Assembly (NCBI GenBank): GCA_016218155.1
Contig: JACREQ010000075.1
Location: 1 to 64,000, forward strand
DNA from: Bacteroidia bacterium
GTDB lineage: Bacteria > Bacteroidota > Bacteroidia > Bacteroidales > GWA2-32-17
DNA: 64,000 nt
Reading direction: 5' to 3'
Position numbers and translations under genes: made by a program. Of this stretch, positions 12,592-27,554 are shown one piece after another (within the stretch, counting starts at the first letter, position 1; every line of letters starts with the position of its first letter). The notes beneath the pieces are model-generated. The model did not search any database. It was not told the origin of the DNA and saw only the letters and a list, made by a program, of their open reading frames with translations.

Positions 12592-12774
12592 TTTCAAATT
12601 ATTATTGTCCTATAGAAATAAAATATTTAAAGACAAAATCATTATCAAGAATAAGCTCCAGCGGAGCTTAATATTTAATATTAATATCATTTATTCAAAT
12701 TATGTTTGTCCCTGCGGGACAAAATGTTTATAGATAATTTTATTTTCAAGGATAAGCTCCAGCGGAGCTTAATG
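12592..12774. repeat. Two ~100-bp tandem units with REP-like palindromes, RAYT-1 downstream flank
   Basis: Two diverged copies of a unit (about 12592-12676 and 12692-12776) share the order: CAAATTAT, a TTGTCC element, an AT-rich spacer ending TCAAG-ATAAGCTCC, then a palindrome. The identical 17-nt palindrome AAGCTCC-AGC-GGAGCTT occurs at 12653-12669 and 12754-12770, the latter four bases from the transposase stop. In unit 2 the first element is an intact palindrome TTTGTCCC-TGC-GGGACAAA (12705-12723); in unit 1 the same place (about 12606) has decayed. Stems closed by 3-nt loops next to a Y1 transposase gene fit REP/BIME sequences. Confidence 0.75.
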
Positions 12775-13239
12775 TTATTCTTCATACCATTCAAATAAAT
12801 ATTGCGGATCAAAATCTACATCATATTTAGCAAGCAATTCTAAATATTCATTTTTAAAAGAATTTTGTTTATGATGCTCTTCCTGATTTAAAATATAATT
12901 AATTACAGTTGTTAATTGAAGATGCGAATGCGTAAATGAGCCAAAACCCTCCTGCCAATAGAATTTGAAATTAGTGAATTTCTTTTCTTTAATAAAGATT
13001 GATGTAGATGTTTTTATATCCCTTACTAAATCAGAAACACAAATATTCGGTTTAAACCCAATAAGAATATGTGTATGATCTGGCATGCAATTAACGGCTA
13101 AAAGTTTTTGCCCATGATTTGTTACAATTCCGGTAATATACTTTTGTAATTCCTCTTTATGTTTTTTGGGAATTAGGTTTTCTCTGTTTCTTACAGCAAA
13201 AACAATGTGAACATACATTTGAGAATAGGTGTTTGCCAT
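12775..13239 (-). CDS. REP-associated tyrosine transposase (RAYT-1, IS200-like Y1 family)
   Basis: A 154-residue Y1-type HUH transposase-like protein. The HUH motif is PDHTHILIGF near residue 55, and the catalytic tyrosine is expected in NYILNQEEHH near residue 116. WQEGFGSFTHSH is a further family block. There is no accompanying TnpB, and the gene lies in short palindromes rather than complete IS ends, so it fits the domesticated RAYT group thought to act on REP sequences by single-strand cleavage. It shares only the general fold pattern with the second RAYT at 27008-27445. It is intact, with a normal ATG start. Confidence 0.9.
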   Translation of the reverse strand: MANTYSQMYVHIVFAVRNRENLIPKKHKEELQKYITGIVTNHGQKLLAVNCMPDHTHILIGFKPNICVSDLVRDIKTSTSIFIKEKKFTNFKFYWQEGFGSFTHSHLQLTTVINYILNQEEHHKQNSFKNEYLELLAKYDVDFDPQYLFEWYEE

Positions 13240-13269
13240 GGTATTATTTTGTATTTATCAATTTACATT

Positions 13270-13337
13270 CAGCTACTCTGTAGCTGAAAGGTATTTTTTT
13301 ATTTTTTTATAAACATTATGCTACTCTGTAGCATAAT
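13270..13337. repeat. Pair of REP-like palindromes upstream of RAYT-1
   Basis: CAGCTAC-TCT-GTAGCTG (13270-13286) and ATTATGCTAC-TCT-GTAGCATAAT (13315-13337) share the core GCTAC-TCT-GTAGC with different outer stem bases, separated by a T-rich spacer. They lie between the RAYT-1 start and the stop of the next PAP2 gene. Their stems differ from the AGCTCC and GTCCC palindromes on the other flank. Confidence 0.75.
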
Positions 13338-13343
13338 CAAAAC

Positions 13344-26303: not shown

Positions 26304-26876
26304 TTACTTAAATCTAAAACAATTAACTAAATGATCATTAACAACACCAATAGCCTGTAAATGCGCATATATAGTTGTTGAACCAACAAATTTAAATCCA
26401 CGCTTTTTCATATCTGCACTAACTTTATCAGATAATTCTGTTTTTGCAGGAATTTCTGACATTGATTTCAACTTATTTTTTATTGGCATATTATTAACAA
26501 AATTCCAAATATATTTATCAAATGTTCCAAATTCTTTTTGTACAGCTATAAATGCCTTTGCATTTGCAATAGCAGATTCAATTTTAAGTCTGTATCTAAT
26601 TATTCCGGCATCTTGCAGCAATGACTCTATCTTATTTTCATTGTACTTACTTACCTTTATAACATCAAACCCATCAAAAGCATTTCGAAAATTCTCTCGT
26701 TTCTTTAAAATAGTATGCCAGCTAAGCCCGGCCTGAAAAGTTTCAAGAATTAAAAATTCAAAATGTTTTTTATCATCATGTACAGGATTTCCCCATTCCT
26801 CATCGTGATACTTTATATAAAGTTCATCTTTTAAACACCAGGGACAACGGATGATATTTTCTTTATTATTTATCAT
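26304..26876 (-). CDS. tag: DNA-3-methyladenine glycosylase I (Tag)
   Basis: A 190-residue base-excision repair glycosylase that removes 3-methyladenine from alkylated DNA. RCPWC near residue 10, YHDEEWGNP near residue 23, HFEFLILETFQAGLSWHTILKKRENFR, and a C-terminal GVVNDHLVNCF match Tag. The cysteines and histidines at C11, H24 and in NDHLVNC are candidates for the structural zinc site known in this family. It is oriented with the polysaccharide genes but separated from them by a possible promoter region, and looks like an ordinary housekeeping gene next to the RAYT-2 island. Confidence 0.95.
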   Translation of the reverse strand: MINNKENIIRCPWCLKDELYIKYHDEEWGNPVHDDKKHFEFLILETFQAGLSWHTILKKRENFRNAFDGFDVIKVSKYNENKIESLLQDAGIIRYRLKIESAIANAKAFIAVQKEFGTFDKYIWNFVNNMPIKNKLKSMSEIPAKTELSDKVSADMKKRGFKFVGSTTIYAHLQAIGVVNDHLVNCFRFK

Positions 26877-26886
26877 AATTTATTTC

Positions 26887-27015
26887 GGCTAAAGCCAGAT
26901 TTATATTTTTCATTTGCCACGACCTAAAGGTCATTGCAAATTTATCATTCCATTATTTTGCCCCGACCTTCAGGTCGGGGATTAAAAAAAATAAAAGCTA
27001 ATTGGCTTTAGCCAA
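26887..27015. repeat. REP-like palindrome array downstream of RAYT-2
   Basis: Four palindromes in order: GGCT-AA-AGCC (26887-26896); TTTGC..GACCT-AA-AGGTC..GCAAA (about 26913-26940); CCCCGACCT-TC-AGGTCGGGG (26961-26980); and TTGGCT-TT-AGCCAA (27002-27015). The last overlaps the RAYT-2 stop codon at 27008-27010. Stems vary in length, but the two cores, GACCT/AGGTC and GGCT/AGCC, recur on the other side of the gene. Confidence 0.8.
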
Positions 27016-27445
27016 AATTGCTTTTGCTTAATCCATTTATTTCCAAAAACTCATCATATTCTTCAGAAAATGTTTTCTTTTTATGATGTTCTTCTTGATT
27101 CAAAATATATTTCCTAACAATATCAATAGCTGATTCGCTTACAGATAAAGCAATATATTCATCTTGCCATTCAAATTTCTGCTTAATTATTTTTTGCTTA
27201 TTTACCCAAAATGAAGATTCTCCCTTTATTAGCATAGCAATTTTTGCAATAGTTTGCTCAGTACCTAATGAAATAAGCATGTGAATATGGTTATCAACAC
27301 AATTTATAGTATCGATAAAAATTTCTTTGACTTTACTATTTTCCTTTATATGTGATAAAAGTAATGGCTTTAATTCTTTTGAAATTATCGGCATTCTGTA
27401 CTTTGTTGCCCAAATAAAATGTATCATTACTTTAGTGTATGGCAT
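27008..27445 (-). CDS. REP-associated tyrosine transposase (RAYT-2, IS200-like Y1 family)
   Basis: A 145-residue Y1-HUH protein. The HUH motif is VDNHIHMLISL near residue 50 and the catalytic tyrosine is expected in KYILNQEEHH near residue 113. The WATKYRMP start and WQDEYIALSVSES block also match. It has no partner gene and sits between two palindrome arrays. Its N-terminus and several blocks differ strongly from RAYT-1, so the two are separate lineages, not a recent duplication. The stop codon lies inside a palindrome. Confidence 0.9.
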   Translation of the reverse strand: MPYTKVMIHFIWATKYRMPIISKELKPLLLSHIKENSKVKEIFIDTINCVDNHIHMLISLGTEQTIAKIAMLIKGESSFWVNKQKIIKQKFEWQDEYIALSVSESAIDIVRKYILNQEEHHKKKTFSEEYDEFLEINGLSKSNFG

Positions 27446-27455
27446 AACTTCTTTT

Positions 27456-27554
27456 GGCTAAAGCCGGATTTATTTTTTTATTTGCCACGACCTGAAGGTC
27501 ATGGCAAATAAATATTATTTTTTATTATTAAACTACTACATGACCTAAAGGTCA
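27456..27554. repeat. REP-like palindrome array upstream of RAYT-2
   Basis: Three palindromes: GGCT-AA-AGCC (27456-27465); TTTGCCA-C-GACCT-GA-AGGTC-A-TGGCAAA (27481-27508), with a single mismatched pair in a 13-bp stem; and TGACCT-AA-AGGTCA (27541-27554). The same two cores occur on the far side of the gene, with GGCT/AGCC nearest the gene on both sides and in opposite orientation. Confidence 0.8.

Follow-up and report, generated by a model that had tools for sequence, protein, structure and literature searches.

The analysed window, 64,000 nucleotides of contig JACREQ010000075.1 from a Bacteroidia bacterium (assembly GCA_016218155.1; the source genome, G000), comprises around positions 26887–27554 a compact locus in which a short gene, tnpA, is enclosed by two kinds of palindrome, inner and outer (Table 1). 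The core is mirrored, running outer palindrome, inner palindrome, gene, inner palindrome, outer palindrome (about 26958–27525), with about 20 AT-rich nt between the outer and inner palindromes of the 5′ side and about 20 nt between the inner and outer palindromes of the 3′ side. This core cassette begins 80 bp ahead of the tnpA start codon, ends 53 bp beyond the final sense codon, and matches the copy of a sister species, G002, at 81% over 572 bp.

Table 1. Features of the tnpA locus, in coordinates of the window
Feature	Position	Strand	Basis or remark
tnpA, predicted Y1 HUH transposase, 145 aa	27008..27445	-	Subclass 1.2 signature, family searches, dN/dS
Core cassette	26958..27525	-	Span of DNA similarity with the copy that G002 has elsewhere in its genome
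Outer 5′ palindrome	27481..27508 (core 27489-27500)	-	13-bp arms, one mismatched pair
Inner 5′ palindrome, GGCTTTAGCC (gene strand)	27456..27465	-	Ends 10 nt ahead of the tnpA start codon (ATG)
Inner 3′ palindrome, GGCTAAAGCC (gene strand)	27004..27013	-	Includes the tnpA stop codon TAA
Outer 3′ palindrome, CCCCGACCTGAAGGTCGGGG (gene strand)	26961..26980	-	Purine centre
Second 5′ unit (outer GACCT and inner GGCT)	26887..26941	-	Ends 10 nt before the tag start; kept in three species
Extra GACCT palindrome	27541..27554		5′ side, beyond the core cassette; in both sister species too
tag-like DNA-3-methyladenine glycosylase (name from sequence)	26304..26876	-	Downstream neighbour with the copied 5′ unit

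The palindrome GACCTNNAGGTC occurs at 26921, 26965, 27489 and 27542, and GGCTWWAGCC at 26887, 27004 and 27456. Since none of 2000 dinucleotide shuffles contained more than one such core, the occurrence of four GACCTNNAGGTC-type cores with 5-bp arms within 751 bp is not attributable to chance. The outer 5′ palindrome (TTTGCCACGACCTGAAGGTCATGGCAAA) displays a 2-nt centre between its arms, the pyrimidine centre GACCTTCAGGTC when read on the gene strand, and the last codons of tnpA read ...TTT GGC TAA, with the stop codon forming the centre of the palindrome GGC-TAA-AGCC. A sequence-only reading of the window had described (i) GACCT/AGGTC and GGCT/AGCC cores on both flanks of the gene, (ii) opposite orientations of the GGCT copies nearest to it (GGCTTTAGCC at 27004 versus GGCTAAAGCC at 27456 on the forward strand), (iii) overlap of the downstream copy with the stop codon, and (iv) a 13-bp stem with one mismatched pair at 27481–27508, and every element is found where it was placed. 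The near-symmetric layout proposed there holds for the core and breaks down at the additional pair, 26887–26941, which repeats the tnpA 5′ unit in direct orientation before tag (53 nt at 79%, 36 nt at 92%; spacing 568–569). A role of the outer palindromes as intrinsic terminators was rejected, the 26961 hairpin being called as such on neither strand.

On sequence grounds, TnpA is predicted to be a Y1 HUH transposase and bears the subclass 1.2 signature: the aligned motifs DNHIH, WQ and YILNQEEHH correspond to DH[IV]H, WQ and Y...Q..HH, the last being present in 79 of 80 relatives. Pfam Y1_Tnp (residues 4–117, E 9e-26) is the sole Pfam domain found in the 145 aa, where an HTH tail of the subclass 2.1 type is lacking, and a profile of 12 relatives matches the structure of IS608 TnpA (2a6m, E 1e-12) in an alignment that pairs the HUH motif and the tyrosine. 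Its score is above threshold for the NCBIfam IS200 model NF033573 (65.6 bits, cut-off 55) and far below it for REP_Tyr_transpos (23.7 bits, cut-off 80). Copies of four species give a dN/dS of ~0.08, indicative of strong purifying selection; no close relative is plasmid-borne, plasmid matches staying under 60% identity.

In the 4.78-Mb source genome, GACCTNNAGGTC is counted four times, always at the tnpA locus, and the seven GGCTWWAGCC sites outside the locus lie in or at the ends of reading frames (six) or in an intergenic region (one). Enrichment of the palindromes elsewhere in their own genome, the lack of which the sequence-only reading had counted among the signs against its proposal, is rejected for the source genome, whereas G002 differs, with 55 copies of GACCTNNAGGTC. 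The source-genome palindromes are private to tnpA and, because of this confinement, do not qualify there as ordinary REPs; together with the profile scores, this makes the RAYT label that the reading had attached to the locus a poor fit. Around a second Y1 gene, RAYT-1 (12654–13340; 30% identity), the palindromes differ between the flanks (AGCTCC/GTCCC and GCTAC) and have 3-nt centres, and AGCTCCNNNGGAGCT is found four times in the genome, two of them at RAYT-1 (control, 0). Two more Y1 genes of the source genome (L002, L003) each have a palindrome type of their own.

Placement of the cassette in sister species

Four species of the genus were compared, the source, G001, G002 and G004, all represented by draft or metagenome assemblies. 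The element lies between a SIMPL-type gene and tag in G001 and G004, the same place as in the source genome, and the tag/SIMPL intergenic region measures 807 and 758 bp, respectively, compared to 103 bp, without palindrome, in G002. The closest G002 tnpA (83%) stands ahead of sucB, where two copies lie in tandem, whereas G000, G001 and G004 have a closed sucA/sucB junction; in the tree, the G002 TnpA is sister to the proteins of these three species. The empty site that the sequence-only reading had looked to relatives for thus exists at tag in G002, and its proposal of a self-contained cassette moved or copied as a unit is supported by this site, by the other location in G002 and by the confinement of similarity to the cassette between unrelated sites. 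Presence and absence of the unit at the tag and sucB sites across the four species, the behaviour of IS200/IS605 elements, is not polarised in direction: gene and palindromes change place together, and the G002 tag site could have lost the element instead of lacking it originally. The G002 tandem pair (L021 1–1450) contains a 5′ sucB fragment between its cassettes; it lies at a contig start and may be an assembly artefact.

The source-genome copy occupies a site common to three species and is under strong purifying selection, and this locus provides no support for recent movement. Neither exact ends nor a target duplication could be fixed for this copy. Flanks nearly always read AT on one side and TT on the other, or the complement, which makes a TA target duplication indistinguishable from none, including at the metH end in three relatives.

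Relatives across phyla and gene-less copies

The 80 relatives examined carry labels of Bacteroidota, Ignavibacteriota and a few others; they were picked by similarity, are non-independent and derive mostly from metagenome bins. At 41 of 76 loci the gene has hairpins on both sides, against an expectation of 0.2 and a count of 9 among 132 control windows, and the 2-nt centres follow a polarity, with 71 pyrimidine to 10 purine centres on the 5′ side and 15 to 70 on the 3′ side (P 7e-21, an optimistic value since the loci are related). The outer cores differ among loci (GACCT, GGCCT, GTGCT, GCGCT, CAGCT and others), are identical within a locus in 13 of 28 cases (6.3 expected by permutation), and diverge along with the protein (Mantel r 0.32). 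Inner palindromes stand 9–18 nt ahead of many tnpA starts, and their centre coincides with the stop codon in 27 of 80 loci versus 4 of 271 other reading-frame ends. Flanking sequence is shared beyond 250 bp by only 7 of the 889 locus pairs alignable over the gene; in close pairs (at least 79% identity) the shared DNA is mainly the cassette and stops within 145 bp upstream of the start and 164 bp downstream of the stop, and in more diverged ones similarity is lost near the gene ends. Many genomes contain gene and palindromes together as one unit, which is present or absent at corresponding sites of sister species, and this kind of cassette is spread across Bacteroidota and Ignavibacteriota. Alternating palindrome arrays surround tnpA in Cyclobacterium sp. 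(L231 1160–3045), where the inner palindromes form a regular array with a period of ~200 bp and the gene occupies one spacer.

A copy of the tnpA 5′ unit is found 10–20 nt before the start codon of an unrelated downstream gene at tag (three species) and at four other loci, where the neighbours, named from sequence, encode an ABC-2 permease (L165), a MOSC-like protein (L185) and CcmB (L188, L191); at L203 and L206 an unrelated upstream gene stops inside the 3′ inner palindrome. Such copies could represent adjoining elements, a target preference for these junctions or shared regulation. A more elaborate proposal, which we consider decidedly doubtful, holds that the 5′ unit (less often the 3′ unit with its stop) is regularly grafted onto unrelated neighbours, that tag starts from the palindromic leader of the transposase, that the cassette inserts at operon junctions with its own stop and start signals, and that TnpA could control itself and its neighbour via shared hairpins.

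G002 is the genome in which the palindrome has multiplied: its 55 copies of GACCTNNAGGTC (control, 0) find no counterpart in G000, G001 or G004. The terminal repeats (TIR) TAGACATCTTTCCAA lie near 30 of the 50 GACCT sites examined there, many of these sites being elements of ~240–390 bp, each end of which bears an inner and an outer palindrome. In several, the first and last tnpA codons are retained between the two palindrome pairs, and such gene-less elements are internal deletion derivatives. TIR-bounded elements number ~20 in G002, at ATTATT-like sites and in either orientation, and the same TIRs bound at least two elements with other interiors, devoid of GACCT/GGCT palindromes. L134 and L148 of G002 display the same TAGACATCTTTCC-type terminal repeats with other palindromes inside (GAATCCGAAGGATTC, CGACTCCTGCGGAGTCG). 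The remaining 20 of the 50 sites have no TIR within 420 bp; 15 of them comprise outer and inner palindromes and are nearly all intergenic, three of the 15 belonging to the sucB tnpA copies. In several G002 copies (L021/L115 1380–1425; L076, L080, L101, L138), a foreign palindrome, TCCTTCGACTTCGCTCAGGA, interrupts the GACCT hairpin at its centre.

Mobile cassette, domesticated gene or passenger

The locus probably represents a mobile cassette in minimal form, with a single gene of the Y1 (IS200-like) HUH transposase type, of which the source-genome copy would be old and held at its site by descent. By homology to IS608-type TnpA, the palindromes would fold into hairpins in single-stranded DNA and be recognised by TnpA as the ends of the element; the tyrosine (Y in YILNQ) would cut and hold the 5′ end covalently, and the enzyme would excise or copy the strand and join it elsewhere. 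Given the mirrored polarity of the ends, gene-less versions may be copied in trans. With mirrored ends like those of REP/inverse-REP pairs and an IS200-like protein, the element has the look of an intermediate between IS200-like elements and REP/inverse-REP systems.

The confinement of the palindromes to a single locus of the source genome speaks against a mobile cassette, and strong purifying selection and a site common to three species fit a domesticated gene equally well. A REP/RAYT-type system of this sort, with the gene stationary for a host role and the palindromes alone, single or paired, copied around the genome, would accommodate the polarity mirrored as in REP/inverse-REP pairs, the dN/dS of ~0.08, the single copy at one site in three species, the 15 TIR-less outer-plus-inner sites of G002 (nearly all intergenic; three belong to tnpA copies) and the alternating arrays of L231. 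We nevertheless regard it as unlikely: the gene has a different position in G002 and unrelated positions in dozens of genomes, with no DNA similarity beyond the cassette; the protein reaches 23.7 bits with REP_Tyr_transpos, whose cut-off is 80; and G000, G001 and G004 show no multiplication of the palindromes.

The same TIRs around other interiors indicate that another transposase may have spread the TIR-linked GACCT copies of G002, and the TIR family of this genome was accordingly rejected as sole proof of palindrome-driven movement. Extending this to the cassette as a whole, so that it becomes the passenger of a different, TAGACATCTTTCCAA-recognising transposase with the palindromes as internal cargo, would agree with the ~20 TIR-bounded elements at ATTATT-like sites in either orientation and with the two that have other interiors; it is very improbable, since G000, G001 and G004 have the cassette and lack the TIR, no TIR match lies within 420 bp of the sucB copy in G002, and the palindromes, not the TIR, are what is conserved across the two phyla. 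Even less credence is given to a purely RNA-level function of the palindromes, as weak terminators or translation leaders that play no part in mobility. Such a function would suit the position of the inner palindromes, 9–18 nt upstream of many tnpA starts and across the stop codon at 27 of 80 loci, the copy ahead of the tag start codon and the terminator-like scores of some palindromes; it leaves unexplained the co-occurrence of gene and palindromes at unrelated sites, the polarity rule and the within-locus matching of the ends.

Relation to known systems and significance

In IS608, the subterminal hairpins of the two ends share one polarity. Compared to this and other IS200/IS605 elements (ISDra2), the mobile cassette shares a homologous transposase and hairpins near both ends, but its double palindromes are mirrored, with pyrimidine centres on the 5′ side and purine centres on the 3′ side, the inner one includes the stop codon, and its copy number is low. 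Another close system is TnpA_Y1 of subclass 1.2, described as low-copy enzymes of ~148 aa from Cyanobacteria and Bacteroidetes that have no REP and, in general, no terminal secondary structures (Quentin et al. 2018, PMC6006769). The likeness extends to Y...Q..HH, DH[IV]H and WQ, length (about 148 aa), low copy number and presence in Bacteroidetes; the difference, palindromes flanking most relatives here, is to be read against a published absence of terminal structures that is a descriptive tendency, not an absolute criterion (PMC6006769).

TIRtrons/TIRYTs likewise comprise a Y1 gene between inverted repeats, some self-complementary or overlapping the gene ends and sometimes dispersed (Di Nocera 2013, PMC3733652), an arrangement found here as well. 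Many TIRYTs share GGGGWSAS (Di Nocera 2013, PMC3733652) and 20 of 26 belong to subclass 2.1 with HTH tails (PMC6006769), whereas the present protein is subclass 1.2-like and has no such tail. REPtrons, or RAYTs with REPINs, resemble the cassette in the inverted palindromes around the gene and in gene-less pairs and arrays, and differ in features of their own, typically a GTAG foot and a YxxNP-type motif; by published account, their loci do not transpose as units (PMC6006769). No GTAG was seen at the hairpin feet of the source-genome tnpA locus, and repetition of cognate palindromes through the same genome, as in RAYT systems, is seen in G002 (55) and not in the source genome (4). The PATEs of Haloquadratum are also non-autonomous, palindrome-ended derivatives, some arising by core deletion, into whose palindromes other small mobile repeats insert; they are archaeal, IS605-derived and without terminal inverted repeats (PMC3119063).

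A subclass 1.2 locus with terminal palindromes, and REP-like ends that change place together with their gene, depart from prior descriptions of subclass 1.2 and of REP-transposase loci. The palindromes provide candidate substrates for subclass 1.2 Y1 proteins, described as generally without terminal structures. The sister-genome pair, with palindromes at the gene only in one and dozens in the other, would make the spread of REP-like palindromes, and the passage from an insertion sequence to a REP system, directly testable.
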